Source of the DNA: Sulfurospirillum multivorans DSM 12446
Lineage (GTDB): Bacteria; Campylobacterota; Campylobacteria; Campylobacterales; Sulfurospirillaceae
Direction: 5' to 3'
Length of the DNA: 64,000 nt
Assembly: GCF_000568815.1 (NCBI RefSeq)
Contig: NZ_CP007201.1
Coordinates: forward strand, 248,001 to 312,000
Positions 1-16,845 of the stretch are shown here, piece after piece (positions within the stretch are counted from its first letter, which is position 1; each line of letters begins with the position of its first letter). The position numbers were made by a program, and so were the translations under genes. Below the pieces are notes generated by a model that did no database searches, had not been told where the DNA came from, and saw only the letters and a program-made list of their open reading frames with translations.

Positions 1-238
1 TAACACCGTTGATTGTTTTACCAACGAGAGCCGTTTGAATTTCAACATCGGTTACACCTGCTTTAGCTAAAAAGCCAAAGTATGTTTTAGAACCCGTTGA
101 AGAAGCAATTTGGATACGTACATCGTGATATGATGTGATACCTGAATCGGTACCGCTCTCACTTTGTTTTGTATAACCTACATATTCACCATCCAACATA
201 GCCGCGCAAAATGCGCTAGCCGCGGTGTCATCAGCAGG
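1..238 (-). pseudogene. Fragment of unidentified protein-coding gene, cut by IS21
   Basis: Read on the minus strand, all 238 bases form one open frame of about 79 codons. It has no stop and no recognisable start. It begins at the outer end of the IS21 element and runs out of the window. The peptide is rich in Ala, Thr, Ser and Gly and contains segments such as SYHDVRIQIASS and YFGFLAKAGVTDVE, which I do not recognise as a family. Base composition is higher in G+C than the island genes, so it probably belonged to the ancestral chromosome or another element before the insertion removed its 5' part. No function is proposed. Confidence 0.45.
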
Positions 239-363
239 TGTCAGACGAAGTGCTAAACTCGTCAGTTGAAAATGTAATTTGAACGTTGCATTTTGATTTA
301 AAACCTTAAGAAACCAAGTTAAATTGGTTAAACTCCATTTTCAAATTTCTGGAAAGGAGTTGA

Positions 364-2285: not shown

Positions 2286-2343
2286 GTTTCAATTCGCAAC
2301 TTTCTTACATTAAAAACTGACGACTTCTGCGCTTCGCTTGACA

Positions 2344-2565
2344 GCACTAAATCTTCTTTTTAATAAAAATCCCAATGCTGATAGAAAACAAAAAGTTGTG
2401 CAACACTCATTAAGACATACCTTTGCCACCACAGTTTTAAATAATGGTGCTGAACTTAATACCGTGCGCCACCTTTTAAATCATCGCTCTATTGAAACAA
2501 GTTTACGCTATTCAAAAATGGCTGATTCTACCATGAATAAAGCAGTTGAAAATTTATATGACTAA
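2344..2565 (+). pseudogene. Tyrosine recombinase/integrase, C-terminal remnant
   Basis: This is the last 70 or so residues of a tyrosine-family site-specific recombinase, cut at its 5' side by the IS21 right end. HSLRHTFATTVL carries the HxxR box, LLNHRSIETSLRYSKM carries the second His region, and the Tyr nucleophile region follows. The catalytic N-terminal Arg/Lys region is missing, so the protein cannot be active. Any apparent start codon upstream is IS-derived. It marks the remains of a phage, integron or integrative element at this position. Confidence 0.85.
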
Positions 2566-2583
2566 TCATTATTTATTATGTGC

Positions 2584-2604
2584 TATAATGATGTTTATAC
2601 ATCA
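2584..2604 (+). promoter_or_regulatory. Promoter -10 and operator-like palindrome of toxin-antitoxin locus
   Basis: TATAAT at 2584-2589 is followed by and overlaps TGATGT-TTAT-ACATCA (2589-2604), a perfect 6-bp inverted repeat. An inverted repeat next to the -10 of a toxin-antitoxin operon is where ribbon-helix-helix antitoxins commonly bind for autorepression. The role is inferred from position. Confidence 0.55.
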
Positions 2605-2627
2605 CTACGTTATGAAAGGAGTATATG

Positions 2628-2871
2628 ATGCATAGAATTAGTTTAACCATAGATAAAGAGCTTTATGAACAAGCAAGAGCATTTGGTTTTATAGAAAAAA
2701 AATCTGTTTCTCAAATTTTACGCGAAAGCTTGGAAGTTTATTTTAAAACATCAAATTCCAAAGATAAAGCAGCTCTGATTTTAGATGCCAAGACAAGAAG
2801 ATGTTTTACACATCTTGAATTCAGATACGTTTACAGATCAAAATGATTTTGCTAAAAAGTATAATGTGTGA
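2628..2871 (+). pseudogene. Antitoxin gene (ribbon-helix-helix type), frameshifted
   Basis: The N-terminal part (HRISLTIDKELYEQARAFG...SVSQILRESLEVYF) looks like a ribbon-helix-helix antitoxin. AAAGGAG at 2615-2621 favours the ATG at 2628 over the one at 2625. The open frame ends at 2846 with an implausible tail (TRRCFTHLEF). One frame over, from about 2788, the sequence reads RQEDVLHILNSDTFTDQNDF and ends in TGA at 2869-2871, overlapping the toxin start. Removing one C near 2788-2789 would join the two parts. The antitoxin therefore appears to carry a single-base insertion that replaces its toxin-binding C-terminus. Confidence 0.7.
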
Positions 2872-3107
2872 AAATATCATTCTCAAAAACGTTTGAAAAA
2901 AGCTTTTCAAAATATGACCATACTTTACAAAAGCGCATTTATGATGCGATTGTAAAATTACCAGAAGGTGATGTCAAACGATTAGCGGGTGATGACATAC
3001 CACCCATTTTTAGATTGAGGGTTTCGAAATATCGCATTCTTTTTTATATGAATGACATTGAAATCAAAATCTTAAAAGTTGATAGTCGAGGCGATATCTA
3101 TAAATAA
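2868..3107 (+). CDS. RelE/ParE-superfamily toxin
   Basis: A 79-residue protein with the compact RelE/YafQ-like fold signature: FSKTFEKSFSKYDHTLQKRI at the N-terminus, then IFRLRVSKYRILFY and a C-terminal basic strand (IKILKVDSRGDIYK). Members are ribosome-dependent mRNA nucleases or gyrase poisons; the sequence does not decide which. The GTG start at 2868 overlaps the TGA of the original antitoxin frame, so translation would be coupled to that frame. With the antitoxin now frameshifted, coupling and neutralisation may both be impaired while the toxin stays open. Confidence 0.8.
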   Translation: MKISFSKTFEKSFSKYDHTLQKRIYDAIVKLPEGDVKRLAGDDIPPIFRLRVSKYRILFYMNDIEIKILKVDSRGDIYK

Positions 3108-3321
3108 GATTCTCCGCCTCGGCTTTCGATAAACTTTCCTTCTAAAAATTCTCAGAAAAATTTTGAAATGTATTATGCAAAACCAATGTTGCCTTCTTAG
3201 ATATTGCATTAATATACTTTTTCATAACTCATTGGAATGACCCCACAATACTAGACACTCTTGAAACTGTTAATCTGGTCGATAATGACCAAATAAAATA
3301 CCAAGAGGAGAAAGTCATTCC

Positions 3322-3606
3322 ATGGCAAATAAACTATACACAGACGAGTTCAAACAAGAGGCTGTCAACCAAATTATCAAAAATGGTTATCCCATTAAAG
3401 ATACTGCACAAAGATTGGGAGTGCATCCTGATTCGCTCAAAGCATGGATAAAAATCTACAGTAATCCGCAAAGTACCTCACAACACCAAGCTTCCAAAGA
3501 TTTGTCATCGGAAAATAGAAAGCTCAAAGCAGAATTAAAAAGAGTCACAGAGGAGCGCGATATTCTAAAAAAGGCCGCAGCGTACTTTGCCAAAAACCAA
3601 AAGTAA
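3322..3606 (+). CDS. IS3-family transposase OrfA
   Basis: A 94-residue OrfA with a helix-turn-helix (FKQEAVNQIIKNGYPIKDTA...LGVHPDSLKAWI) that recognises the element's ends. It is followed by a leucine-zipper-like coiled coil (LSSENRKLKAELKRVTEERDIL) used for multimerisation. RBS-like AGAGGAG lies shortly upstream of the ATG. A slippery A6G stretch near its 3' end would produce an OrfAB fusion by -1 frameshifting. It is intact, but its partner orfB is broken. Confidence 0.88.
   Translation: MANKLYTDEFKQEAVNQIIKNGYPIKDTAQRLGVHPDSLKAWIKIYSNPQSTSQHQASKDLSSENRKLKAELKRVTEERDILKKAAAYFAKNQK
3567..3573 (+). promoter_or_regulatory. Programmed -1 frameshift heptamer (A AAA AAG)
   Basis: In the orfA frame the heptamer reads A AAA AAG, the classical IS3 slippery site. 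After slipping back one base the frame stays open straight into orfB (GRSVLCQKPKVKYAFIKEYE...), confirming the geometry. Confidence 0.8.
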
Positions 3607-4197
3607 AGTACGCCTTTATCAAAGAGTATGAGCCACTCTATCCTGTGAGAAGAATGTGCAAAACTTTGCAAGTTCATTTTAGTGGTTATTACGCATGGGC
3701 TAAACAACCAGAGTCAAAGCGTGACATAGCTAATAAAGTTGTGTTGCACCACATTAAAGAGGCTTATGAGCATAGTGGGCGTATTTATGGATATCGAACT
3801 GTTACAAAAGATCTTGTGGCATCAGGTATTGGTGTTAATAAAAAACGCGTTGCAAGATTGATGGGTGAAGCCAAACTCTTTGGTGCAGGTGTAAAGCAGA
3901 GAAAACCTCGTTACAAAAAAGGGAAAAGACATGTGGCGCATCCTAACCATCTTGGACAGTGCTTCAATGTTCAAGAGCCAAATCACACATGGGTAACAGA
4001 TATAACCTATATCAAAACATACGAAGGATGGTTTTATTTAGCAGTTGTATTAGATCTTTTTAGCAGAAAAATAGCAGGATGGGCAACAAGTCATCGCATG
4101 ACAACTGGGTTGGCTCTAAAAGCCCTGGAAATGGCAACCTTTAGACAAAAACCACATCATGAAGTGATTGTACACTCAGACCAAGGCTCACAATATA

Positions 4198-4206
4198 GCT
4201 CATACG
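4198..4206 (+). repeat. Target-site duplication of IS256 element, left copy
   Basis: GCTCATACG here is repeated at 5544-5552 on the other side of the IS256-family element. Nine bases fits the 8-9-bp duplications known for this family and fixes the element's ends. Confidence 0.92.
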
Positions 4207-5543
4207 GGACCGTTCAGAATTCTGTGTCAATCGGGTAAAATAACAAATACCCAAGGACACAGATATGAAGATAGAAATAGACGTAGAGCAATTTGCTCAA
4301 GATATTAAAGCCGGCAAGAGTATTGGTGGCTCAAATGGAGCCTTAGGATCACTCATCAAACAGCTAACCGAAGCCGCGCTAGCAGCTGAGATAGATTCGC
4401 ACCTCTCCCAAGACCTCAATAGAAATCGAAAAAATGGCTATAGTTCAAAGACTATGAAAAGCGATCATGGTGCCTTTGAACTTGATGTTCCAAGAGACCG
4501 TAACGGTAGCTTTGAACCTGAAATCGTAAAGAAAAACCAGACCAGCATGACGAGTGAAATCGAAGAGAAGATTCTTTCTCTCTTCGCACTTGGCAATAGC
4601 TATTCCCAAATAGCCAAACACATAGAGGATTTTTACTGCGTAGGCTTCTCTAAAGCCACTATAAGCGCCGTAACCGACAAGATAATACCAATGCTTCAAG
4701 AGTGGAAAACAAGACCCTTAGAAGCTGTGTATCCATTTATATTCTTAGATGCCATTCACTACAAAGTAAAAGAGGATGGTCGCTACATCTCAAAAGCATT
4801 TTATACAGTGCTTGGTGTTCGAGTGGATGGCAAGAAAGAAGTCTTGGGACTTACCTCAAGAAAGGAAGTCTTGGGACTTTACCTCAATGAAAGTGAAGGC
4901 GCCAAATTCTGGCTACAGGTGCTTACCGATTTGCAAAACCGTGGCGTTAAAGATATCCTCATTGCTTCGGTAGATGGGCTTAAAGGCTTTCCAGAAGCGA
5001 TAAACTCAGTCTTTCCAGATACGGAGGTGCAACTCTGTGTAGTTCACCAAATACGCAACAGTCTCAAATATGTGGGCTCTGCTTATCAAAAACAATTTGC
5101 TAAAGAACTCAAAGCCGTCTATCAAGCTTTTACCAAAGAAGAAGCAGAATTTGAGCTTGATAAGTTGGAAGAAAAATGGGGTAAAAAATACCCTATCGTC
5201 TTTCAATCTTGGAGAAATAAATGGGATAATTTATCTGTCTACTTCCAATATCCAGAAGATATACGTAGAGTTATTTACACAACTAATATCATCGAATCAG
5301 TCCACCGCCAGTTTAGAACTCTAACGAAAACCAAAGGTGCTTTTCCCAATGATGATAGCCTGCTAAAACTACTTTATATGGGGATTCAAAATGCCCAGCA
5401 AAAATGGACTATGCCAATTAGAAACTGGAGCTTAACAATCTCTCAATTAGCCATTCACTTTGAGGGACGGCTTGATGACGCTTTAAACTTATGATACAAT
5501 TTTAGGAATTATCCGATGTTGACACAGAATCTTGAACACTACC
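4207..5543 (+). mobile_element. IS256-family insertion sequence nested in IS3
   Basis: A 1337-bp element with imperfect inverted repeats: GGACCGTTCAGAATTCTGTGTCA at the left, and the complement of GGTAGTGTTCAAGATTCTGTGTCA at the right. It carries one transposase gene and is flanked by a perfect 9-bp duplication. It therefore arrived by transposition after the IS3 element was already in place. Confidence 0.93.
4265..5494 (+). CDS. IS256-family (mutator-type) transposase
   Basis: A 409-residue transposase. Family landmarks are LTEAALAAEIDSHL near the N-terminus, RNGYSSKTMKSDHGAFELDVPRDR, the first catalytic Asp in FIFLDAIHYKVKEDG, the second in ASVDGLKGFPEAINSVFP, and the Glu in TTNIIESVHRQFR. 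Near residues 195-215 the segment KEVLGL occurs twice (KKEVLGLTSRKEVLGLYL). This comes from a 27-base imperfect tandem duplication, where other members, as I recall, have a single copy. The insertion is in frame and lies between the catalytic Asp residues, so activity is uncertain. Confidence 0.9.
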   Translation: MKIEIDVEQFAQDIKAGKSIGGSNGALGSLIKQLTEAALAAEIDSHLSQDLNRNRKNGYSSKTMKSDHGAFELDVPRDRNGSFEPEIVKKNQTSMTSEIEEKILSLFALGNSYSQIAKHIEDFYCVGFSKATISAVTDKIIPMLQEWKTRPLEAVYPFIFLDAIHYKVKEDGRYISKAFYTVLGVRVDGKKEVLGLTSRKEVLGLYLNESEGAKFWLQVLTDLQNRGVKDILIASVDGLKGFPEAINSVFPDTEVQLCVVHQIRNSLKYVGSAYQKQFAKELKAVYQAFTKEEAEFELDKLEEKWGKKYPIVFQSWRNKWDNLSVYFQYPEDIRRVIYTTNIIESVHRQFRTLTKTKGAFPNDDSLLKLLYMGIQNAQQKWTMPIRNWSLTISQLAIHFEGRLDDALNL

Positions 5544-5552
5544 GCTCATACG
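5544..5552 (+). repeat. Target-site duplication of IS256 element, right copy
   Basis: GCTCATACG, identical to 4198-4206. The IS3 orfB frame continues from here. Confidence 0.92.
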
Positions 5553-5918
5553 AGTGGCAAGCACTTCTCCAAAAATACAACCTTATCCCTAGTATGAGCA
5601 GGCGAGGAAATTGTTATGATAATGCAGTTGCTGAGAGCTTTTTTAAAACATTTAAGCGTGAATGTGTCAAAAAGCAGATTTATATTACACGAGAAGAAGC
5701 ACAATCAGACATATTTTACTACATCGAAATGTTTTATAATTCAACTAGAAGGCATAGTTATCTTGGTTATATTTCACCCAATGAATTTGAAAAAAGATAT
5801 AATGAGAAATTAAATATGGCTTCGCAGAATTAAATTGTGTCTACAAATTTGGGGTCATTCCAAAAATAATAGCAGTACGTTCCAAAGAAATTATGGAAAG
5901 ATATAGAGTTTCATTTAT

Positions 5919-7166
5919 TTAGATAGTTTGCAAAATAAAATTTTTCTGATCAATTTTTTCAATTTTTAATTCTTTAATAAAAACATTACTATTGATCTCT
6001 TCAATTATATTATATGACATACCAATATCTATATTTACCATATCAAATAATGTTATATATTTAGGATGAAACTCTAAAAAATTATAATCATCATTCTTAT
6101 TATATTGAAGAAGATTATTTTTTCTTAACACATGTTCAACACAATGTATGTCATTATCATATACTTTTGCACTTTTTAAAAAATAATCTTTCTCACTAAG
6201 ATAAAACCATTTGTCAATAGGATATGCTGTATTGTATTGATATATTTGTCCCAAATGTTTATTTGCTAATGAACAATAATGAATACCCATTTTAAAATTA
6301 TTTTGTTTAGCAAATCTAAGTAATTTAAGGCTGTCTTCTTCACTTCCTGCAATAGCTAAACCACCGGAATACCAATAGTTATAATATACTTGAAATGGTG
6401 GATATTTCAATAAAAAACCTCTTCTTATAAATTCTTTTTCATTGTGCAATGGAAAACAAAATTCAAGCAAATTAATACCCCTAACTCCAATGCTTTCTAA
6501 AGTAGTTATAATGTTTTCCATATGTGAATATGTCTTTGGAATGACTGGCATTTCTACAATAACATCAGGTATATAATATCTTGCTTCTTCAATTTTTTCT
6601 AAAATATCTGCCTGTTTTTCTAATGAATCTTCAAGCTTAATGCTAAATCTAATTTCTTGTAAGTTGCAGTTTTTTAATTTTTTTAAAATAAACGTATCAA
6701 TTAATTCTCCATTAGTATATAAACGTTTGTGAATTTTTGAGTTAAATCTTTCTATTCTCTGAAAAAAATTTATAGCCTCTTTTTTATGTAACAAGGGTTC
6801 ACCACCAGTGAGAGCGACATATTGTATTCTTGGATTTTCTTTTAAAAGGTGATTGGCTATTGATTGCCCTTTTTTAATATTTTGAGTATTGTCTAAAAAA
6901 TCAATTTGATTTGGATTAAAACAAAAATAACAGCTTTTATTACATTTAAGTGATAAAAAATCTGAACGAGAATCAATACCTTTTTCACATGCAATACATG
7001 CAGAAGATTTAAAATTAATATATTCACTTGGTGAATACATTCTATCGCTTGAATAAATATTATGTTTATCAAATTTGAGGCCATATTGTTGTTCAATACT
7101 ATTTATAAAGTCGTTCTCAATTTTATTATACATTTGAATGGATGTCGCAAGATTATTAGGAATCAT
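5919..7166 (-). CDS. Radical SAM protein of the molybdoenzyme operon
   Basis: A 415-residue radical SAM enzyme. CNKSCYFC (Cys75, Cys79, Cys82) is the CX3CX2C site for the SAM-binding [4Fe-4S] cluster, and TGGEP (from about residue 120) is the SAM-binding GGE motif. An upstream pair, CIAC (Cys57, Cys60), and further Cys residues towards the C-terminus (HYCSLANK, DIHCVEHV) may hold metal, but no regular SPASM pattern is visible. It is the last gene of the leftward operon: its ATG overlaps the TAA of the Ada-like gene (TAATG). Substrate is unknown. Linkage suggests maturation, modification or regulation tied to the DMSO-reductase-type enzyme. Very AT-rich. Confidence 0.82.
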   Translation of the reverse strand: MIPNNLATSIQMYNKIENDFINSIEQQYGLKFDKHNIYSSDRMYSPSEYINFKSSACIACEKGIDSRSDFLSLKCNKSCYFCFNPNQIDFLDNTQNIKKGQSIANHLLKENPRIQYVALTGGEPLLHKKEAINFFQRIERFNSKIHKRLYTNGELIDTFILKKLKNCNLQEIRFSIKLEDSLEKQADILEKIEEARYYIPDVIVEMPVIPKTYSHMENIITTLESIGVRGINLLEFCFPLHNEKEFIRRGFLLKYPPFQVYYNYWYSGGLAIAGSEEDSLKLLRFAKQNNFKMGIHYCSLANKHLGQIYQYNTAYPIDKWFYLSEKDYFLKSAKVYDNDIHCVEHVLRKNNLLQYNKNDDYNFLEFHPKYITLFDMVNIDIGMSYNIIEEINSNVFIKELKIEKIDQKNFILQTI

Positions 7167-7960
7167 TAATTCATCCCTAATGTAAATTTTATTGGCTGGT
7201 ACAGGAAAACTTTTTTAAGAGGCAAATATCCCCATCTATAATTACAAATAGCGCCTGATTGCATTACAGTATCATAACAAAATGGAAAACATGGAACTAT
7301 ACTTAAAATTTCATTATGAAAATGGTCATTTTTTTCCCAAAAATCCTCTATGGTGTTATTAAAGGGTAAATTAAAAACAGCATTCCACAAATTTAGTTTA
7401 TTATTGTTATTCATTTTATTTTTTTCTGTGAATAAACGGTCAAGATATTCTTGAATAATAACTTTATCTTCTATTAAATCAGCATTCCTCCAATATCCTT
7501 CAATATTCATGTGAAATTCATCAGCAAATTCTAAAAAACTTAAAAAACATATTCCTTTGTTTGTTATTCCCATTAATGCTTTGCCTAAAGGGCTTTGACC
7601 TATACCATATGTAATTTTTGTTTGATAGCCAAAATGTTTATATTGATCAGGGCTAACAGCACAACTTTTTATAAAAATATCATATAACCTGGAAGAACTA
7701 GATAAGCCTAAATCTAGGGTATTATCTAAAAGAGTTTTATTAATTCTAAGATTTTTCTTTGCATCATTTAAAATTCTCATATGTAAAAATTGAATAGGAG
7801 TAATCCCTATAAATTCTGTAAATAATCTTATAAAATGATATTTACTTAAATGCACAGTTTGTGCCAATTTTTCAATATTTGTACTGTTCAGATTTAAAAT
7901 AATGCTATCAACATTAGTGATAAACTGACTAATTTTTTCAAATTTTTTCATACTTCCCAT
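7166..7960 (-). CDS. AraC/Ada-like regulator with degenerate methyltransferase domain
   Basis: A 264-residue protein. Residues 1-110 form an AraC-type double helix-turn-helix (LAQTVHLSKYHFIRLFTEFIG; SSSSRLYDIFIKSCAVSPDQY). Residues 117-255 resemble the Ada C-terminal O6-alkylguanine methyltransferase: YGIGQSPLGKALMG and GICFLSF at its start, GAICNYRWGYLPLKK at its end. The catalytic PCHR motif reads PCFPF (Cys224 kept, His and Arg lost). The part between the VWxAL-like segment (LWNAVF) and this site is roughly 35 residues shorter than in Ada, removing much of the DNA-repair helix-turn-helix. It probably serves as a sensor and regulator of this operon rather than a repair enzyme. It lies between the polyferredoxin and radical SAM genes. 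Confidence 0.75.
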   Translation of the reverse strand: MGSMKKFEKISQFITNVDSIILNLNSTNIEKLAQTVHLSKYHFIRLFTEFIGITPIQFLHMRILNDAKKNLRINKTLLDNTLDLGLSSSSRLYDIFIKSCAVSPDQYKHFGYQTKITYGIGQSPLGKALMGITNKGICFLSFLEFADEFHMNIEGYWRNADLIEDKVIIQEYLDRLFTEKNKMNNNNKLNLWNAVFNLPFNNTIEDFWEKNDHFHNEILSIVPCFPFCYDTVMQSGAICNYRWGYLPLKKVFLYQPIKFTLGMN

Positions 7961-7966
7961 ACTTTT

Positions 7967-8983
7967 TTATGAGTTAAAAAAATTATAAATATTCTTTTGA
8001 CTTTTGCACTCAATACACATAGTATCTTCTTCATTGGGCATAAAATTACCACATATAGTACATTTTTTAGGAGTGATTTTTATTGTTGCATAATTTATTA
8101 GTGAGTTTTTTGCGTTATATGACTTTAATCCAAGGTTTCCTTTGAATAAACAAACGGTTTGACATAACATGCATTCCATACATCTCAAGGGTGAATGCTC
8201 ATAAATAATATAATTTTTAGACTTTGTAATAGATATCGCGTTATTAGGGCACATTTTTTCACAAATAGCACATCCAATACAATTTGCTTGGATATCTAAT
8301 GTTTTCCATCCATGATCTTGATCATATTGTTTTAAATATTTAAACATAATTTTTCGACTAACATCATTTAGTAGGTGAAATTCTGGATCATCAATGAAAT
8401 CCTTCGCATATTTTTTAAATAATTTAAATATTTCACGCTTTCTAATTTCAGAATTCACTACTTTATCTTCAATAAGAACCCTTTTATGGTACTCTACCCC
8501 TAAAAACTCTTGTGCCCTATGTAAAGATTTTTTGAAAATGTCTAAATGAGATGTTAAATTACATGTAGAACAAGTATCCATGAAAAAAATCACAGGCTTT
8601 TTTAGTGCTGCATAAACAATAAATTCCCAAGGAAGGGAAGCAATACAAAAAAGTTTTAAATTCTTATAATTTTGACTTTTTTCACAGCCTATATATATGA
8701 AGTCATCAGATGTTTCATTCAATGCCTGCCAAATTGATAATGCATTTTTTTTTGAAAAGGAAATAGAACGAGTTGGGCAACCAACTAAGCATAAATTACA
8801 ATCTATACATTCTTCAGAATTTATTTTAGTATAGGGGGTTGTTTTCATAATCTGTTTTGGACAGACCGTCTCACAGTTATTACAAGGTTTTTTACTTTGC
8901 AAAGTATTTAAACATGTATCAATATTTTTAGATACATGTGAAGAATAGTACTTCATATCAATTGTTGTTAAAAAACCACTCAT
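7967..8983 (-). CDS. Polyferredoxin-like 4Fe-4S protein with C-terminal zinc-ribbon-like end
   Basis: A 338-residue iron-sulfur protein. N-terminal motifs are CNNCETVCP and CIDCNLCLVGCP. A central region of about 130 residues carries the Cys-containing segments YIGCEKS and FMDTCSTC. A second ferredoxin module (CIGCAICEKMCP and CMECMLCQTVC) follows. The C-terminus has CTICGNF...CIEC, resembling a zinc ribbon. No membrane segment or signal peptide is apparent, so it is probably cytoplasmic. It sits between the chaperone and the Ada-like regulator, with gaps of 25 and 6 bases. A role in electron supply or cofactor insertion for the molybdoenzyme is inferred from the operon; the exact family is not recognised. 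Confidence 0.72.
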   Translation of the reverse strand: MSGFLTTIDMKYYSSHVSKNIDTCLNTLQSKKPCNNCETVCPKQIMKTTPYTKINSEECIDCNLCLVGCPTRSISFSKKNALSIWQALNETSDDFIYIGCEKSQNYKNLKLFCIASLPWEFIVYAALKKPVIFFMDTCSTCNLTSHLDIFKKSLHRAQEFLGVEYHKRVLIEDKVVNSEIRKREIFKLFKKYAKDFIDDPEFHLLNDVSRKIMFKYLKQYDQDHGWKTLDIQANCIGCAICEKMCPNNAISITKSKNYIIYEHSPLRCMECMLCQTVCLFKGNLGLKSYNAKNSLINYATIKITPKKCTICGNFMPNEEDTMCIECKSQKNIYNFFNS

Positions 8984-9008
8984 AATAATGTCCCTCTAAA
9001 TATCAATA

Positions 9009-9665
9009 TTAACTAAAATATTGTTGTAAAAATTTTTTATCAGCAATAAGAAAACTAGATAAATGCCATGCAATTTGCTTGATATATATGCTCTCACTCT
9101 CATTCAATTGATTTGCATATAAATTAATCCATTGGAGTAAATGATTTTCTAGAAATAGCAAGCTATCGCCAATCACATTAACATCTTTTTCATCTTCACA
9201 TAAAAGGCCTGCTAGGTAAAGCATATAATTTAATTCGAACATAATATGATCATCTGAAACATGAGGATACTCTTTTGGAAGAAGATTATATTTCTGATAT
9301 TCACTCCTAACTTGTAATGTATACTCAGTAAAAATGACATTTTCTTTTTTACGATATACACTTTCCCATGGTGGCGCTACAAGTTTATGTGGGCCAATCA
9401 TCAATTCAGTATATTCCTTTTGTAACCTATTCTTGAATTGACTATTTCCAAAATTATTAGCCAAATTTATTACAAAATTATAGTAGTCTATATTATTATA
9501 GATATTTTCCGCTATCTCAAAAGTTTTCTTAAATTCATTACTTGTCAAAAAGCTAATATCATCTGTATCTAAAGCTTTTGAGAATAATAGGTAAAATGAC
9601 TTGTAGAGATACACTCTACAAGCCAAAATTAAATCCAAATCTGATATATATGTTAACTTTTTCAT
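9009..9665 (-). CDS. TorD/DmsD-family molybdoenzyme chaperone
   Basis: A 218-residue all-helical cytoplasmic chaperone of the TorD family. These proteins bind the twin-arginine leader and help molybdopterin insertion before Tat export. Key features are an N-terminal helix with RVYLYKSFYLLF, the family motif region GPHKLVAPPWESVY and HVSDDHIMFELNYM. Its ATG overlaps the TGA of the membrane-subunit gene (AATGA), so the two are translationally coupled. The likely client is the DmsA-like protein encoded upstream in the same operon, whose leader has RRDFLK. Confidence 0.85.
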   Translation of the reverse strand: MKKLTYISDLDLILACRVYLYKSFYLLFSKALDTDDISFLTSNEFKKTFEIAENIYNNIDYYNFVINLANNFGNSQFKNRLQKEYTELMIGPHKLVAPPWESVYRKKENVIFTEYTLQVRSEYQKYNLLPKEYPHVSDDHIMFELNYMLYLAGLLCEDEKDVNVIGDSLLFLENHLLQWINLYANQLNESESIYIKQIAWHLSSFLIADKKFLQQYFS

Positions 9666-10519
9666 TGCAAACCTATAGTACTTGTTTGCATTGCTAAATA
9701 AAAAATTAATTTTGCTAATAATGCAGCAGTAGTTAGTAATAACGCTGAAATTATACTGGAATTTATCGCAAGTTGATTATTGCTGACCTTTTCAAATCCA
9801 ATAAATTCAAGAAAATTCTTCAAATAGTACAAAACTATTGATAATCCTCCAGTAATCCATGCTAATAACATAACATCTTTATATGAATAAAGTATTTCTG
9901 CACTTTTTTGTATGACATTATTTCCGTTGGCTAAAGATAAACCATGGAAGACATAAGAAATAGCTAAAATACTCGCTGAAACAATAGTAATAGCTCCTAA
10001 AAAGACATATTCTTTACTTGAATATTCAATATTTGCGCCAATACTGTAGAAAATTGCTCCTAAAGCTATGGCTGAAGCATAGTATTCAATATAGGTATGG
10101 TTTGTATGCCAAAAAGGGACACTTGTATAAATATAAACATTACTCATTGCAAGTAATGTAAATATTCCAACTATAGCTGAAAGAGAACCAAAGATTTTTT
10201 CAAGACTTCTTTGATTTTTGAAGCTAACAAATAAATATATTATTGTAAAAATGGTAAAAGTACTAACTGATAAAATTTCTCTTGAAAGCCAGGACGTTTC
10301 TATATTTACTATAGAATAATAAACATGGAATGGATAACCTAAATGTTTCAAGGAGACAAGAGAACCAATAATTGCGCATATAGCAGCTATACTAATTACT
10401 CTCTTATTCGTTTGACCATTTTTGAAACTATAAAAAACTTCAAATAGAATCATACCTATTGATATTTCAACCAATATCGTAAAAAGACTAAGTCCTAATT
10501 CTCCAAAAAAATGTTCCAT
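9662..10519 (-). CDS. dmsC: DmsC-like membrane anchor subunit
   Basis: A hydrophobic protein of about 285 residues with roughly eight membrane segments, as in the DMSO reductase anchor DmsC. It would attach the catalytic and iron-sulfur subunits to the outer face of the cytoplasmic membrane and oxidise quinol. The ATG at 10519 (MEHFFGELG) is chosen because AAGGAG lies 8 bases upstream and dmsB stops one base earlier. A longer frame would overlap dmsB by 32 bases. The motif ISIGMILFEVFYSF in the first helix and HTNHTYIEYYASA midway are noteworthy; family assignment rests mainly on topology and context. Confidence 0.82.
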   Translation of the reverse strand: MEHFFGELGLSLFTILVEISIGMILFEVFYSFKNGQTNKRVISIAAICAIIGSLVSLKHLGYPFHVYYSIVNIETSWLSREILSVSTFTIFTIIYLFVSFKNQRSLEKIFGSLSAIVGIFTLLAMSNVYIYTSVPFWHTNHTYIEYYASAIALGAIFYSIGANIEYSSKEYVFLGAITIVSASILAISYVFHGLSLANGNNVIQKSAEILYSYKDVMLLAWITGGLSIVLYYLKNFLEFIGFEKVSNNQLAINSSIISALLLTTAALLAKLIFYLAMQTSTIGLQ

Positions 10520-10520
10520 C

Positions 10521-11093
10521 TTATAGCTCCTTGATTTTAAAATACTTATCAAATGCTTGTGCCTTTGGCTTAATCAATATACTTGGTTGAGTAATAGATG
10601 ACTGTGGCAAAATAGGAAGATCTTTTATATACGCAGAATCTTCTTCTATGTTATCTAAATCAACAATCTCCAAACAACGCATAACACAAGAATCAACACA
10701 AGCTGGATTTTGCCCTTTATTTTGTAAATCTTGGCACATATTACATTTAGCAACCATTCCAGTTTTTTCTATGTACTGTGGTACACCATATGGACAATTC
10801 CATGTACAATATTTACATCCAATACATTTTGAATCATCATGTTGCACACTACCATCAGAACTTATATGCATTGCGCCAGTTGGACACCCTTTAACGCATT
10901 TTGGATCACGACAGTGATTACATGTGGCAGTATAGTGATACATCTTGGCATTGGGGAAAACGCCTGTTTCAAAACTTACTACTTTCCTAAAAAAAGTACC
11001 TACATCTAAGTTGTTTTTATCTTTACATGCTATTTGACAAGTTTTACAACCAATACAGCTAGTCATATCTAGTTTAAAACCTTTTTTTCCCAT
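10521..11093 (-). CDS. dmsB: DmsB-like four-cluster iron-sulfur subunit
   Basis: A 190-residue electron-transfer subunit with four [4Fe-4S] motifs: CIGCKTCQIAC, CNHCRDPKCVKGC, CIGCKYCTWNC and CNMCQDLQ...PACVDSC. It passes electrons from the anchor to the molybdopterin subunit. The third motif has Trp and Asn before its last Cys, and all four clusters appear complete. The ATG at 11093 is preferred because AAGGAG ends 8 bases upstream; the GTG at 11102 overlaps that ribosome-binding site. The gene follows dmsA by 17 bases. Confidence 0.92.
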   Translation of the reverse strand: MGKKGFKLDMTSCIGCKTCQIACKDKNNLDVGTFFRKVVSFETGVFPNAKMYHYTATCNHCRDPKCVKGCPTGAMHISSDGSVQHDDSKCIGCKYCTWNCPYGVPQYIEKTGMVAKCNMCQDLQNKGQNPACVDSCVMRCLEIVDLDNIEEDSAYIKDLPILPQSSITQPSILIKPKAQAFDKYFKIKEL

Positions 11094-11110
11094 AATTATC
11101 ACTCCTTGAT

Positions 11111-13756
11111 TTATAAAACAATTCTTTGTGGTTTTTTAACATCATTTATAAGCTGGTCATTGAATTTACTTATATTTACAATACAACTATTGTAGCCTGA
11201 CACCCCTTGCCCTGTTGCAAATTGACCAGATAGCGTATTATCCGCCCCACCCTTATCTATACCTGTTTTAGGATCAACATCACTCCATGCACCATGTGGC
11301 AATGCAACAACTCCTGGCATTAAACACTCTGTAACTAATGCATTTCTCAATACTTTTCCATATTCATTTTCTACCAAAACAGTATCACCATCTTGTAAAT
11401 TTTTTATCTTTGCATCATATGCATTGATAAAAATTGGATTTTTCCATGCTTCTTGAAGCCATTTGATATTATCAAAAACAGAATGTGATCTTCTCAAATA
11501 ATGTGGGGTTATTAATTGAAATGGATATTTACCTTTTTTCTTTTTTTGCCAATTCTCAAAGGTATCTACATAACCATCTTTAACATTGATGTATGTAGGT
11601 ATTGCCTTAATTGTTGAGAATCCCATTCGATTAACTTTTTGAGCTAGTGTTGGAGAACAAATTTCTAACTTACCAGTTTGTGTTGTTAATGGATATGCAT
11701 CAGGATTTTTTCTAAACTTTTCATAGGCAATATAACCAAAATTATCACCTTGGAAACGTTCAACTTGATATACACCATTTTCTTTGAATTTTTTATAAGA
11801 AATTTTTCCTTTTTGCGTTTTACCGATAACACCTAATTCTTTAATATCTTCCTCTGTAATAGTTACAAGAGGTGAATATGTTTTCCCATCATCATTAACA
11901 ACTTGAATAGTTGTTAATTCATTAAAATATTGTTGTTTTTCATCAAAAGGATAAACATCTTTTTCACTAATTCCAAGTTTCTTTGCAAGTTCTTTTGCAA
12001 TCCATTGCTCAGATTTAGCTTCATAGAGAGGATTTGTAACTTGTGAATAGTGAATAATCATTTCTCTATTACCACTATGAATCAAATTACCACCTAAAAA
12101 ACCTCCAAATTGTTCCCATGGTGTAATAATTGGTAAAACAATATCAGCATATTTTGCATTTGTTGTCAAAAATTGACCATGAGCAACAACTAAATCTACT
12201 TTTTTGTGGGCTTCTATTCCTCGTGCCATACCATCATTGGTTTGTAATAATGCACTCGCTGCATGATAGATAACTTTAATATTAATATTTCTTAATTCAC
12301 CTTTACTATATTGCGTCGGTGAAGCGAAGGAGCCTTGACCGGTAAAAGTATATTTTCCATCAAGAATAGCATTCCATAACTCATTGGCATTAATTGTGTC
12401 ATCGATAGGATTTAGAATGGCTGGCAATCCTTTACTCCCAGCTTTTACAAGTGCTGGACCACCATTCCCTGAAGTACAATGCATTGTACTTCCTGTCATA
12501 TGTCCTGATTTACCCATATGTCCGGTCATAGCACCAATAGTCATAATTAATTGTGGTAAATTATCAGAATTTCTAGTTCTTGCAGATGCCATACCACATA
12601 AGATAGCAACCTTATTATTCTTACCAATAGTTAATGCTAATTGCTTAATTTCATTTTCGTTAACACCACAAATATCCGATGCCCATTTTGCATTTTTAGG
12701 TTGTTTATCATATGTTCCAAGAACATAATCTTTAAAATTATCTTCTTTTTTCATATTGTCTGGCATGTGATCCGCATCAAATCCAATAGTACATTTTGAT
12801 AAGAAATCCCAATCTATAAGGGGCTGGTGTATTGGATCATCCATTACTAATAAAGAGTGTGCAACACCAAGTAATAATGCAGTATCTGTGGATGGACGTG
12901 TTGGTAGCCATTTGGCTTCAAGAAGGTTATGTGTTTCATTATACATTGGATCAATTGCAATAAATTGCGCACCTGCTTTCTTTGCTTGCAAGTAATTTAA
13001 GGTAGAACTACCCATCGCACTCCATGCTGGATTCATACTAATCATAACGATTGTGTCACAATTTCTTAAATCAAATCTATCATTAACAGTTTGATCCCAA
13101 ACTCCCAATTGCATAAAACCAACTGTTGCAGGTGTTAAAGACCAACTTCCAAAAGAATTTGTATTCCAACATTCTGTATATCCACCAAAAAGTCCTAAAG
13201 TTCTTGAAATATCAGTAATGGCGCTATTCCATCCAGCAGATATTAAAATTGAATTATTACCAGATTCTTTTTTTGTTTTTTTTAATTCATCTGAAATATA
13301 ATTGAATGCCTCATCCCAAGAGATTCTTTCCCATTCATCTTGACCACGTAAGTTTTTATCACCGCCACCAGGTTTCCAATGTTTTCTCTTCATTGGATAT
13401 TTTAATCTATCAGCACCAAAAACCTGTTTTCGCTGGCTCCTACCACGTAAACATCCTCTTTGTTGTGGGAAATCAATACTATCTGAATGGGTGTCATCTG
13501 TTTTTTGTCTAATGACAATTCCTTCTTTTACTAGTGCTTTATTTACACATCTACCACCACAGTTATGCCAACAAGCTGCTGTAATCCATTGTCCCTCATC
13601 AATGTCCTTAGATACTTCTTTTGTAGATAATTTATTTATTAACGTATTATCAGAAGTTGCCACAGAAGTAGAAGCTGCTGTTAATGCAGCAGCTTTTAAA
13701 AAATCGCGCCTATTAAATTTTTTTTCATTTACACCAATGGAATCAACATAAGACAT
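11111..13756 (-). CDS. dmsA: DMSO-reductase-family molybdopterin oxidoreductase, catalytic subunit
   Basis: An 881-residue exported molybdoenzyme. The Tat leader has RRDFLK at residues 16-21 followed by an Ala-rich stretch. Cys62, Cys66, Cys70 and Cys102 (CWHNCGGRC...GCLRG) would bind a proximal [4Fe-4S] cluster. The segment SFGSWSLTPAT around residues 201-211 lies where family members hold the Mo ligand and offers Ser206 rather than Cys or Sec. The C-terminal molybdopterin dinucleotide-binding region includes LITPHYLRRSHS and ALPHGAWSDVD. It is first in the operon, with GGAGG just upstream. The substrate could be DMSO, TMAO, another S- or N-oxide, or a chalcogen oxyanion; sequence alone does not decide. 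Confidence 0.9.
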   Translation of the reverse strand: MSYVDSIGVNEKKFNRRDFLKAAALTAASTSVATSDNTLINKLSTKEVSKDIDEGQWITAACWHNCGGRCVNKALVKEGIVIRQKTDDTHSDSIDFPQQRGCLRGRSQRKQVFGADRLKYPMKRKHWKPGGGDKNLRGQDEWERISWDEAFNYISDELKKTKKESGNNSILISAGWNSAITDISRTLGLFGGYTECWNTNSFGSWSLTPATVGFMQLGVWDQTVNDRFDLRNCDTIVMISMNPAWSAMGSSTLNYLQAKKAGAQFIAIDPMYNETHNLLEAKWLPTRPSTDTALLLGVAHSLLVMDDPIHQPLIDWDFLSKCTIGFDADHMPDNMKKEDNFKDYVLGTYDKQPKNAKWASDICGVNENEIKQLALTIGKNNKVAILCGMASARTRNSDNLPQLIMTIGAMTGHMGKSGHMTGSTMHCTSGNGGPALVKAGSKGLPAILNPIDDTINANELWNAILDGKYTFTGQGSFASPTQYSKGELRNINIKVIYHAASALLQTNDGMARGIEAHKKVDLVVAHGQFLTTNAKYADIVLPIITPWEQFGGFLGGNLIHSGNREMIIHYSQVTNPLYEAKSEQWIAKELAKKLGISEKDVYPFDEKQQYFNELTTIQVVNDDGKTYSPLVTITEEDIKELGVIGKTQKGKISYKKFKENGVYQVERFQGDNFGYIAYEKFRKNPDAYPLTTQTGKLEICSPTLAQKVNRMGFSTIKAIPTYINVKDGYVDTFENWQKKKKGKYPFQLITPHYLRRSHSVFDNIKWLQEAWKNPIFINAYDAKIKNLQDGDTVLVENEYGKVLRNALVTECLMPGVVALPHGAWSDVDPKTGIDKGGADNTLSGQFATGQGVSGYNSCIVNISKFNDQLINDVKKPQRIVL

Positions 13757-13964
13757 TTTTATCCTCCAAAACTAATTTTTTAGAATAATATTTAATAAAG
13801 AAAGTTATATCAATCTGAATATTGCGATTTTATAGAACACTAAAAGTTCATTTGAGAATAAATCTTTAGAACTGCAAGATAATATTAATTATACCCAAAC
13901 TGCTAGTTGAACAGCAAGGCTTTTTTGTCATCACTAAGCTTCAAAAAGCAGTTGATAGCGTAAG
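13757..13964 (-). promoter_or_regulatory. Upstream region of the molybdoenzyme operon
   Basis: This 208-base gene-free stretch is very AT-rich. On the minus strand it carries GGAGG about 7 bases before the dmsA start and a TATTAT-like -10 candidate within 50 bases. I saw no convincing FNR-type box. It is the natural place for the operon promoter and for binding of the Ada-like regulator, but no operator can be assigned. Confidence 0.35.
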
Positions 13965-14067
13965 TGTCAAACGAAGTGTAGAACTAGGCATATATTTTTA
14001 AAAACTATCCCTTTTGTTTAGGCTTTTAACAAAATTATACATGCAAAAAATTGCACTTCGCCTGATA
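13965..14067. repeat. Pair of IS21-end-like inverted sequences
   Basis: TGTCAAACGAAGTGTA at 13965-13980 resembles the outer end of the IS21 element (TGTCAGACGAAGTGCTA). TGCACTTCGCCTGATA at 14052-14067 resembles it in the opposite orientation. The 103-base span encloses no IS21 gene. It could be a decayed element, a miniature derivative or chance; the right-hand part starts 15 bases from a gene fragment's stop codon. Confidence 0.35.
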
Positions 14068-14347
14068 GAAGATAAAAAAGTTATTGTAGTGATTGATGTT
14101 TTGTTCTTTTTGAAGTCTTTGAATGACTGCATTTTTAACACTTTCACATTCACAGACTATGACAACTTTATGTGGTTTTAGCAGGTTGTATTTCTCTGAT
14201 AGGACTCTTTTTGAAATTGCAAAGACATGAACACATAATTGTTCAAATAGCCTTTTGACATCTTGACCGTTATGCTGCTCAAATAAATAAAGGTGCTTTT
14301 GACATCTTGACCGTTATGCTGCTCAAATAAATAAAGGTGCTTTTGAC
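14035..14347 (-). pseudogene. C-terminal fragment of unidentified gene, cut by IS21 copy 2
   Basis: On the minus strand a frame of about 86 codons reads HLYLFEQHNGQDVKRLFEQL...HKVVIVCECESVKNAVIQRL...FFIFYQAKC and ends in TAA at 14035-14037. I do not recognise the family; the segment order suggests the tail of a plasmid or phage-type protein. The 5' part is lost to the IS21 element. The frame is also disrupted near its 5' side by a 44-base tandem repeat, which is not a multiple of three. Confidence 0.5.
14252..14347. repeat. 44-base tandem repeat abutting IS21 copy 2
   Basis: A 44-base unit beginning CTTTTGACATCTTGACC occurs at 14252-14295 and again exactly at 14296-14339. Then 8 bases of a third copy (CTTTTGAC) run into the IS21 end at 14348. 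The duplication probably arose by slippage or by IS-associated rearrangement. Confidence 0.95.
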
Positions 14348-14472
14348 TGTCAGACGAAGTGCTAAACTCGTCAGTTGAAAATGTAATTTGAACGTTGCAT
14401 TTTGATTTAAAACCTTAAGAAACCAAGTTAAATTGGTTAAACTCCATTTTCAAATTTCTGGAAAGGAGTTGA

Positions 14473-15585
14473 GTGTTAAAAAAAGGTGAAATTAAAATGA
14501 TAAAGAAGTTTTTAGCTGAGGGTTTGAGTAAGAGTGCCATTGCACGAAAGTTAGGTATTTCAAGAGATACCGTAAGGCGTTACGCCAATCTTCCTGATGA
14601 TTATGTTCCTCATATTAATCGACCTCCTGTCATCAATAGTGTTGATCCTTATCTACCGCATATTGCCAAGATGTTAGAGATGGCAGAAGCGACGAAAAGT
14701 GAAATCCCTTTAACGGTTATTTATGAAGAGATTAAGAAGCTAGGCTATGAGGGAAGTTTGCGTTGGTTGCAGCAAGTTATCCAAAGATATGAGTTAAGAA
14801 GTCGAGCCAAATTGGATGAACCTATCATTCGCTTTGAAACCAAACCTGCCCAACAGATGCAAGTCGATTGGATAGAGTTTCCAAAGGATAATTTATCAGC
14901 ATTTGTGGCAACGATGGGATATTCTAGGGCTTCGTATGTGGAATATGTCAATAATGAGAAGATAGAGACGCTCATTGGATGCCATATGAATGCCTTTAGC
15001 TACTTTGGAGGTGTTCCAACGGAGTGTTTGTATGACAATATGAAAACGGTTATTTTAGGACGGAATAGTTATGGCAGAGGCAAACATAAACTCAATCCAC
15101 TCTTTGAGGACTTTGCCAAACACTGTGGCTTTAGCATCAAAGTCTGCAAACCCTACCGTGCCAAGACCAAAGGAAAAGTAGAGAGATTTAACCATTATCT
15201 ACGGTATAACTTTCATAATGGATTGATAGTGAGACTTTCTATGAAGCATTATGCATTAACGCTGGATAATGCGAATGCAGAAGTGCTCAAATGGTTGGAT
15301 AATACCGCCAATAAACGCATCCACCAAACAACATTACAGATACCATTTGAATTATTAGCACAAGAGCAGCTGCAACTGCGTCCTGTGCCTAAAGCCTATC
15401 AAGGAATCCACCCTAAAGCTTTGATTGAAAGTGTAGCTAAAAAATATACGCCAATCAATTCATACCATGACATCGATAAGCTCTACATTCCCCATCGTGA
15501 CATTCAATGCTACGATGAGTTTATCCCGATCGTTGCCAATATTATTCTTCCAGTTGGATTATACGGTGGTGCATTATGGAATTAA
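14473..15585 (+). CDS. istA: IS21 transposase IstA, copy 2
   Basis: The 370-residue translation is identical to the gene at 364-1476: helix-turn-helix followed by a DDE core (MQVDWIEF, CLYDNMKTV, GKVERFNHY). It has the same GTG start and ribosome-binding site. Identity with copy 1 shows that one copy arose very recently from the other, or that they are kept identical by gene conversion. Confidence 0.93.
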   Translation: MLKKGEIKMIKKFLAEGLSKSAIARKLGISRDTVRRYANLPDDYVPHINRPPVINSVDPYLPHIAKMLEMAEATKSEIPLTVIYEEIKKLGYEGSLRWLQQVIQRYELRSRAKLDEPIIRFETKPAQQMQVDWIEFPKDNLSAFVATMGYSRASYVEYVNNEKIETLIGCHMNAFSYFGGVPTECLYDNMKTVILGRNSYGRGKHKLNPLFEDFAKHCGFSIKVCKPYRAKTKGKVERFNHYLRYNFHNGLIVRLSMKHYALTLDNANAEVLKWLDNTANKRIHQTTLQIPFELLAQEQLQLRPVPKAYQGIHPKALIESVAKKYTPINSYHDIDKLYIPHRDIQCYDEFIPIVANIILPVGLYGGALWN

Positions 15586-16394
15586 TTGTATCCATTGAAG
15601 CACTCTGTAAAGAGCTGAATCTCTCCACCATTAGTACACACTATCATGAGATAGCAACAACAGCAGCCAAAGAGAATTGGCAGTATGTTCAGTTCCTTGA
15701 GGAACTCTTACGCCAAGAGGTGGATAATCGCTTAGGACGCTCCAAAAACACATTGACAAAGCTTGCAGGCTTCCCCGTTATTAAAACCCTAGAGCAATTT
15801 GATTACACTTTCTCAGTAGGCGTAAACAGAAAACAGATTGAAGAGTTATCCAATCTCACCTTTGTAAAGAAGCATGAGAATATCATCCTCTTAGGTGAAA
15901 GCGGTGTGGGTAAAACCCATCTGGCTATTGCTCTAGCATTAAGAGCTGTACAACATCGCTACAAAGTGAGATTTACCACCATCAGTGAACTCTTAAGCAG
16001 TGCCAATAGAGCTAAAAAAGAGAAAAAATACGATAGCTTTCTCAAATCCATCACAAGCCCATCGGTTCTTGTTATCGATGAGATTGGATACTTTAATATG
16101 AGTAAAGAAGAAGCTAATCACTTTTTTCAAATTATCTCTAAACGCTATGAAAAAAGCTCCACCATCTTTACATCAAATTTGGTATTCAGTAAATGGGTTC
16201 AAGTATTTGCAGGGGATAAAATCGTTACAACAGCTATTTTAGATAGAGTATTACATCACTCACATATCATCAATATTCAAGGAGACAGTTACCGACTTAA
16301 AGAGAAAAAACTAACAGGAGTTTTACACTCAGAAATCTATAAGTTTGAAGCTAAATCTTCAAACCTAGAAGGTCAAAATTCAGAGGTGGTTTAA
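15576..16394 (+). CDS. istB: IS21 helper ATPase IstB, copy 2
   Basis: The 272-residue AAA+ ATPase is identical in translation to the one at 1467-2285, with Walker A GESGVGKTH and Walker B VLVIDEIGY. It overlaps istA by 10 bases. It appears functional and could mobilise both element copies and, in principle, the DNA between them. Confidence 0.93.
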   Translation: MELIVSIEALCKELNLSTISTHYHEIATTAAKENWQYVQFLEELLRQEVDNRLGRSKNTLTKLAGFPVIKTLEQFDYTFSVGVNRKQIEELSNLTFVKKHENIILLGESGVGKTHLAIALALRAVQHRYKVRFTTISELLSSANRAKKEKKYDSFLKSITSPSVLVIDEIGYFNMSKEEANHFFQIISKRYEKSSTIFTSNLVFSKWVQVFAGDKIVTTAILDRVLHHSHIINIQGDSYRLKEKKLTGVLHSEIYKFEAKSSNLEGQNSEVV

Positions 16395-16452
16395 GTTTCA
16401 ATTCGCAACTTTCTTACATTAAAAACTGACGACTTCTGCGCTTCGCTTGACA

Positions 16453-16610
16453 CTTTTTTTATAAGTAGTTTTTAAATAATCAAAAAAGCCTAGAATTGAA
16501 CCCTCATTATTTAAAATTGTGAGAGAGTCGTATTTTTGACCATCACATGTAAAAGAAATATCCAACTTATCCTTGGCAACATCTACACCAACAAAAACAA
16601 CTTTACGCAT
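16453..16610 (-). pseudogene. IS110-family transposase, N-terminal remnant
   Basis: About 52 residues starting MRKVVFVGVDVAKDKLDISF, the typical first strand of the IS110 DEDD transposase with its first catalytic Asp, then NNEGSILGFFDYLK. The frame enters the IS21 right end and continues there only by chance. The rest of the transposase is not present on the far side of the IS21 element, so a deletion has removed it. It marks an older insertion at this chromosomal boundary. Confidence 0.82.
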
Positions 16611-16816
16611 GGTAAATCCTTTTTTATGTATAATGTGTACTTCTTTATACTTGTAAACGTGATCTAGTCACTAGATTATTATTAAAAGTTAGTACACGAA
16701 AACCCCTATCTTCATTTAAAGCTTAAAGCCTAAGGTATAATTCGGGGTTAAACGTGTATATCGTGAGAATCAAGTAACTTTTAACACGAATAATTCAAAG
16801 AGTATTAAAAGGATGA

Positions 16817-16845
16817 ATGACAAAAAGCATCTTACAAGGTATAAT
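16817..16845 (+). promoter_or_regulatory. Promoter of greA
   Basis: ATGACA at 16817-16822 and TATAAT at 16840-16845 are separated by 17 bases, a good sigma-70-type match just ahead of greA. The preceding 200 bases, back to the IS110 remnant, hold no gene; they contain a short inverted pair (AACCCC near 16702 and GGGGTT near 16744), possibly part of the IS110 end. Confidence 0.65.

Follow-up and report, generated by a model that had tools for sequence, protein, structure and literature searches.

A radical-SAM gene recurring beside one clade of DmsA-like reductases points to a possible undescribed step in the maturation of molybdenum respiratory enzymes

The S-oxide and selenate reductases of E. 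coli, Salmonella and Enterobacter (DmsABC, YnfEFGH-DmsD and SrnABCD) combine a catalytic subunit, which carries a twin-arginine translocation (Tat) signal and a molybdenum-ligand serine, with a DmsC anchor and a TorD/DmsD chaperone. Maturation of enzymes with a molybdenum-bis(pyranopterin guanine dinucleotide) cofactor (Mo-bisPGD) is not known to need more than molybdenum cofactor synthesis, Fe-S assembly and a chaperone of the TorD/NarJ type. Here we describe an operon in a window of 64,000 nucleotides from Sulfurospirillum multivorans DSM 12446 (contig NZ_CP007201.1, positions 248,001 to 312,000), in which seven co-directional minus-strand genes (13756 to 5919) encode, in this order, DmsA, DmsB, DmsC, TorD, a polyferredoxin, a regulator and a radical S-adenosylmethionine (radical-SAM) protein. 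The operon has the subunit plan, Tat signal, chaperone, anchor and molybdenum-ligand serine of the reductases above. In contrast to them, it adds the radical-SAM protein and the polyferredoxin, its DmsA is about 31–35% identical to theirs and belongs to a separate well-supported clade, its Fe-S signature is CWHNCGGRC instead of C[ST]VNCGSRC, and its scores are under the cut-offs of the dmsA_ynfE and dmsB models. The pairing of the radical-SAM gene with the reductase is found again in distant phyla and may thus reflect a step in the maturation of molybdenum respiratory enzymes that has not been described.

Two known radical-SAM systems invite comparison. QhpD, the radical-SAM maturase of quinohemoprotein amine dehydrogenase, introduces thioether cross-links in a small subunit. 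The analogy concerns the way of working and not the sequence: a periplasmic redox enzyme has one of its subunits modified by a radical-SAM enzyme while this subunit is still in the cytoplasm. TIGR04317, the "tungsten cofactor oxidoreductase radical SAM maturase" family, whose name points to pairing with tungsten enzymes, is similar in that a radical-SAM gene is paired with a metal-pterin oxidoreductase and the function is inferred from context. However, the partner in the window comes from a different enzyme family, and the window protein gave no match to TIGR04317 at E 1e-3 (4 of 27 members of its own family match, weakly). TIGR04317 is a conceptual precedent, to which the window protein does not belong by sequence. 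No description of a radical-SAM gene paired with DmsA/TorD was found in the open-access literature, subscription papers being outside that search. DMSO reductases are not mentioned in the text of the S. multivorans proteome paper (PMC4585668), and the DMSO and TMAO reductases named in a comparative Sulfurospirillum paper (PMC4794192) are those of two different loci, SMUL_0500-0501 and SMUL_2312-2314.

The Pfam matches above gathering scores (PF00384 and PF01568 in DmsA, PF13247, PF04976 in DmsC and PF02613 in TorD) assign the core of the operon to the DmsABC architecture of the DMSO reductase family. DmsA scored 482 bits against dmsA_ynfE (TIGR02166), under the curated cut-off of 777.7, and a Bacillus member of the same clade was also under it (530 bits); DmsB reached 187 bits against TIGR02951, whose curated cut-off is 214 (214.1). 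In a FastTree phylogeny of 126 rows, in which long branches are unsafe, the window DmsA falls into a clade of 74 rows (local support 100) that leaves out E. coli DmsA, YnfE, YnfF, TorA and BisC, and also the DmsA proteins of other Campylobacterota. A preliminary description of the DNA had named nesting of the catalytic subunit among well-known DMSO reductases as an outcome that would speak against its idea of a specialised reductase; this outcome did not occur. The signature CWHNC is found in 69 of the 74 clade members, whereas E. coli has C[TS]VNC. Ser201 of the window DmsA aligns with Ser147, the molybdenum ligand of Rhodobacter DMSO reductase, and this serine is invariant in 14 clade members. 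No solved structure was closer to DmsA than TMAO/DMSO reductases, and no characterised member of the clade was recognised. Assignment of a single substrate from the active site was rejected, because the conserved serine points just to oxygen-atom transfer; the substrate is, as had been anticipated, not predictable from the catalytic subunit. The best explanation of these sequences is a Tat-exported, membrane-anchored S-/N-oxide-type reductase of an uncharacterised clade. It would be one among many such enzymes in this genome, a single contig of 3,175,729 bp with 20 genes of the molybdopterin oxidoreductase family, three of which contain an in-frame TGA and are probable selenocysteine formate dehydrogenases.

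The radical-SAM pair alone was used as bait in the GTDB contig collection, and DmsA played no part in the selection. The scan returned 68 loci from Enterobacterales, one Achromobacter, Bacillaceae, Clostridia and Coriobacteriia, and neighbours were called by hidden Markov model searches of all open reading frames in these loci and in G270, a genome from another Campylobacterales family. A molybdopterin oxidoreductase was located ≤9 kb from the radical-SAM gene in 60 of 68 loci (15/15 in Pseudomonadota, 10/12 in Bacillota and 35/41 in Actinomycetota), often with TorD, and several of the loci without one are on short contigs. When only DmsA of the window's clade was counted, the numbers were 15/15, 9/12 and 23/41, proximity being weaker evidence in Coriobacteriia than in other groups because of their very many molybdopterin genes. 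TorD lies ≤150 bp from the radical-SAM gene on the same strand in 14 of the 15 Pseudomonadota loci. The usual order in Enterobacterales and several Bacilli is rSAM-TorD-DmsA-DmsB-DmsC (rSAM, radical-SAM), and DmsA-DmsB-TorD-rSAM is common in Coriobacteriia. G270 carries the same seven genes as the window in identical order (identity 74% for DmsA, 60% for the radical-SAM protein and 35% for the regulator), so the gene set is more than chance.

The association was also observed when whole genomes were counted. Among 347 sampled Campylobacterota genomes, a full-length radical-SAM relative was present only in the window genome and G270, the other hits being weak partial radical-SAM matches; among 249, DmsA of the clade was again limited to these two, all others being ≤35% identical. 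In 246 Enterobacteriaceae genomes, 7 had both genes, 1 had only the clade DmsA, none had only the radical-SAM gene and 238 had neither. All 7 radical-SAM genes adjoin a clade DmsA (Fisher p = 8e-13), and the ordinary DmsA/YnfEF genes of this family have no accompanying radical-SAM gene. The counts for 129 Eggerthellaceae genomes were 52 with both, 11 with DmsA only, 25 with the radical-SAM gene only and 41 with neither (p = 3e-7); neither p-value takes shared ancestry into account. Judged by coordinates, nearly all of 22 genomes taken from the radical-SAM loci had the gene no more than about 8 kb away from a clade DmsA, and in multi-copy genomes a radical-SAM gene was ≤8 kb from 31 of the 142 DmsA copies listed. 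The preliminary description had given accessory genes that fail to accompany this catalytic subunit elsewhere as a second outcome against its idea; this did not occur either, the radical-SAM gene accompanying the subunit strongly and the polyferredoxin often. The idea of a specialised reductase set is supported, as a gene set, for modification and redox supply; the sensing part is weaker, since the Ada-like regulator was found only in the two Campylobacterota operons.

In the tree of the 68 radical-SAM proteins, those with DmsA-clade partners are separated from those with other, mostly NrfD-anchored, molybdoenzymes. The partner label changes 4 times on this tree against 16.1 times in shuffles, and none of 500 shuffles was as low. 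Such splitting by partner type is the pattern expected of an enzyme that acts on its partner, though shared ancestry contributes. Any radical-SAM enzyme serving DmsA would have to act before export, because DmsA leaves the cell interior by the Tat pathway while SAM, reductant and TorD are confined to the cytoplasm. Apo-DmsA, or its cofactor, is the favoured target in view of the gene order with TorD, the splitting of the tree and an operon that contains no gene for a peptide or metabolite. A RiPP-type system (ribosomally synthesized and post-translationally modified peptide) with its own precursor in the operon was rejected, because gaps of ≤25 bp leave no room for it. We give a probability of roughly one half to the reading that the radical-SAM protein is a partner-specific maturase, which would act on apo-DmsA (or the cofactor) in the cytoplasm together with TorD and would be reduced by the polyferredoxin.

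The proposed order of events, with target, chemistry and reductase substrate all inferred, is as follows. TorD would hold apo-DmsA in the cytoplasm, and the polyferredoxin would supply low-potential electrons to the [4Fe-4S] cluster of the radical-SAM protein, which would modify DmsA once by radical chemistry while DmsA is still unfolded and has not been exported by the Tat pathway. Less likely targets would be DmsB and the Mo-bisPGD cofactor. After export, DmsC would pass quinol electrons via DmsB to the periplasmic molybdenum site, and the AraC/Ada-like protein, recruited locally, would regulate the operon. Extended to the family, the proposal is that respiratory reductases of the Mo-bisPGD type are modified, in the protein or the cofactor, by an undescribed radical-SAM family that works with TorD and its own polyferredoxin ahead of Tat export; in this general form it is less likely than not.

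Several observations weigh against a partner-specific maturase. Most of the closest DmsA relatives (58–64% identity, from Eggerthellaceae and one Lachnospiraceae genome) lack a neighbouring radical-SAM gene, and in some of their genomes none was found at all, so the protein is not strictly required for the clade. A Citrobacter freundii plasmid (NZ_CP099223.1), which is the single exception among the Enterobacteriaceae counted above, carries TorD-DmsABC and the polyferredoxin (4Fe-4S protein) without the radical-SAM gene. One Coriobacteriia branch of the radical-SAM tree adjoins the other, NrfD-anchored molybdoenzymes, and the polyferredoxin is absent beside the radical-SAM gene in Providencia and Morganella. 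A comparison for residues conserved in DmsA proteins next to a radical-SAM gene and changed in genomes lacking it gave no candidate modification site, and the clade-specific DmsA residues are also present in members whose genomes lack the gene. This coming and going around the DmsA clade would fit a radical-SAM enzyme that acts on a small molecule, making or consuming a compound handled by the reductase, so that the pathway and not the protein is conserved; for example, it could convert the reduced product or release an S- or N-oxide substrate in the cytoplasm. Some Eggerthellaceae genomes have the gene although no clade DmsA was detected in them, which fits equally, as does a fold near small-molecule enzymes and maturases alike (viperin, MoaA, NifB and PFL-AE, Z 15–17.5). 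However, the gene is tightly coupled to TorD, the chaperone of the catalytic subunit, its tree splits by partner type, and the operons share no conserved transporter or additional metabolic enzyme. A small-molecule role is considered unlikely.

Some loci show other arrangements. In five Eggerthellaceae loci, a second radical-SAM branch stands beside a different molybdoenzyme, which in one of them comes with an NrfD anchor and a gene resembling TorD. A Lachnospiraceae metagenome-assembled genome of 2.5 Mb has 13 DmsA-clade matches, one of them 63% identical to the window protein, and a single radical-SAM gene, a hint that one radical-SAM protein may serve several reductases. The Citrobacter operon sits between insertion sequence (IS) elements and has a divergent AraC gene.

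The radical-SAM protein is a member of the radical SAM superfamily by its CX3CX2C motif (C75x3C79x2C82, invariant in 68 sequences), its score above the PF04055 cut-off and its fold (Z about 17). Its AlphaFold2 model has a predicted local distance difference test score (pLDDT) of 89. The fold neighbours include NifB, viperin, SuiB, pyruvate formate-lyase activating enzyme (PFL-AE), MoaA and others with Z-scores of 15–17.5, which do not separate functions; NifB ranks highest, tied with viperin (17.5 and 17.0). The sequence matches in the PDB cover the core region only. None of the NCBIfam models (HxsC, viperin, MoaA, NrdG, PqqE and others) came near its cut-off for the window protein, the best being HxsC (44.5 versus 267.9), and members of the family match many such models, weakly. 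Four extra cysteines, C57, C60, C237 and C298, vary little or not at all among the 68 sequences and would probably bind a second Fe-S cluster. These cysteines, the top rank of the cluster-building NifB and the position of the clade-specific CWHNCGGRC around the Fe-S site of DmsA would suit a different role, in which the radical-SAM protein and the polyferredoxin take part in making or inserting a metal cofactor (a variant Mo/W-bisPGD, or an Fe-S cluster of DmsA or DmsB) with no amino-acid modification. Nevertheless, the Z-scores are tied across unrelated functions, clade members without any radical-SAM gene found retain the same Fe-S signature, and ordinary DmsABC is assembled without such genes, which makes metal-cofactor assembly quite unlikely.

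The 20 cysteines of the polyferredoxin are all invariant between the window protein and 13 relatives from Bacillota, Pseudomonadota and Actinomycetota, while overall identity to these relatives is just 16–25%. Such relatives adjoin the system in Bacilli, some Enterobacterales, Achromobacter, one Lachnospiraceae genome and one Eggerthellaceae genome. Given its absence beside the radical-SAM gene in Providencia and Morganella, the polyferredoxin is a frequent, non-obligatory partner. Its AlphaFold2 model was too poor for use (pLDDT 55.6).

The regulator matches E. coli Ada by hhalign (probability 98.8, E 8.5e-17, 228 columns), and it also matches 1SFE. It shares with Ada the AraC-type helix-turn-helix (HTH), the transferase C-domain and the acceptor cysteine, Cys228 being aligned with Cys321. 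If it were a genuine alkylation-stress Ada, the operon would be part of an alkylation or methyl-transfer response. However, the N-terminal methylphosphotriester (Zn-Cys4) domain is absent (the protein begins directly before the HTH, and no such Pfam match was found), and the active-site motif PCHR has become FCYD in the window and PCYE in G270, so that the cysteine is kept and the His-Arg is lost. The operon has no repair gene, and in other genomes the system is not accompanied by this regulator: the other radical-SAM loci have PucR-type, ordinary AraC or two-component/histidine-kinase regulators and no Ada-like one. The name "Ada-like" given earlier is therefore appropriate for the architecture, whereas a repair function is unlikely and an alkylation response appears very improbable. 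In three loci from Slackia and relatives, a two-component sensor kinase with a Tll0287-like domain lies near clade DmsA genes, and such kinases may point to an inducing signal.

All seven genes named in the preliminary description were located and assigned to families (Table 1). It had joined the genes by start-stop overlaps, which are real at DmsC/TorD and regulator/radical-SAM; the remaining junctions are short gaps. From DmsA to the radical-SAM gene the spacings are 8, -32, -4, 25, 6 and -1 bp, where the -32 bp overlap of DmsB and DmsC depends on a TTG start and disappears if an in-frame ATG 11 codons downstream is used. The seven genes are likely one transcription unit. Promoter-like sites in the region are not above the shuffled expectation in number. 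Upstream of dmsA, the minus strand at 14050-14330 looks, by eye only, like the remnant of a decayed coding sequence.

Table 1. Features of the operon and of the inserted segment around it (window positions)
Feature	Position	Strand	Evidence or remarks
DmsA-like catalytic subunit, 881 aa	11111..13756	-	Tat signal NRRDFLK, [4Fe-4S] motif CWHNCGGRC, Mo-ligand Ser201
DmsB-like Fe-S subunit, 193 aa, four cysteine motifs	10521..11102	-	Fer4_11; best NCBIfam TIGR02951
DmsC-type membrane anchor	9662..10552	-	PF04976 2.8e-25; TTG start as listed
TorD/DmsD-type maturation chaperone	9009..9665	-	PF02613 1.2e-22; NCBIfam DmsD 2.9e-17
Polyferredoxin, 338 aa	7967..8983	-	four [4Fe-4S] (Fer4-type) motifs and C-terminal CxxC...CxxC
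AraC-type HTH regulator with degenerate Ada (O6-alkylguanine transferase) C-domain	7166..7960	-	PF12833; hhalign to E. coli Ada
Radical-SAM protein, 415 aa	5919..7166	-	PF04055 4.7e-12; cysteine conservation; AlphaFold2 pLDDT 89
Putative leader with Shine-Dalgarno TTTGGAGGATAAAAATG and sigma-70-like TTGATA-17-TATTAT (13813-13785)	13757..13840	-	weak evidence
Left IS21 copy (istA/istB)	239..2343	+	100% identical to 14348-16452
Right IS21 copy	14348..16452	+	upstream of dmsA
IS3-type transposase, apparently split by IS256 transposase (4265-5494)	3645..5833	+	downstream of radical-SAM gene
Strain-specific insertion, 17.2 kb	1..16836, starting 365 bp left of the window	.	empty site in four congeners

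The sequences flanking this region are contiguous in three congeners and only about 160 bp apart in a fourth, so the operon sits in a 17.2-kb insertion (about 247636-264836 in genome coordinates). The radical-SAM gene was not found in the other 99 relatives searched. G+C is 26–35% in the operon versus about 42% to its right. The operon lies between two IS21 copies of 2105 bp each, 100% identical and in direct orientation, and the flanking IS elements match plasmid sequences of Sulfurospirillum. A simple IS21 composite transposon was rejected: the outer IS flanks differ, the insertion reaches past both copies, and its ends do not match IS21 ends. The IS256 interruption in Table 1 is deduced from IS3-type transposase pieces on either side. 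A tandem 52-bp repeat with a 44-bp period (14252-14347) abuts the right IS21 copy. The plasmid collection contained no relative of the radical-SAM protein or the polyferredoxin, and the phage collection gave no DNA match to the operon. By sequence, the operon was horizontally acquired, having arrived in this Sulfurospirillum genome on an IS-laden insertion, and the nearest DmsA proteins after that of G270, from Lachnospiraceae and Eggerthellaceae (58–64% identity), likewise point to a lateral origin. This IS-rich, low-G+C setting and the Citrobacter plasmid copy near IS elements would be expected if the genes travelled jointly on mobile DNA with no common function. In contrast, the association spans Enterobacterales, Bacilli, Clostridia and Coriobacteriia with deep radical-SAM divergence, and passive linkage would not be expected to last at 40% identity or to yield p = 8e-13, so that mere co-transfer is highly unlikely.

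The analysis also defines a large reductase clade without an assigned substrate. If the maturase reading is true, radical-SAM modification would be a maturation step so far unknown for the DMSO-reductase superfamily. Anaerobic respiration would then include an unrecognised protein or cofactor modification, to be expected wherever the radical-SAM protein recurs with this one reductase clade, which it does across four phyla and also in gut Coriobacteriia, Morganella and Providencia.

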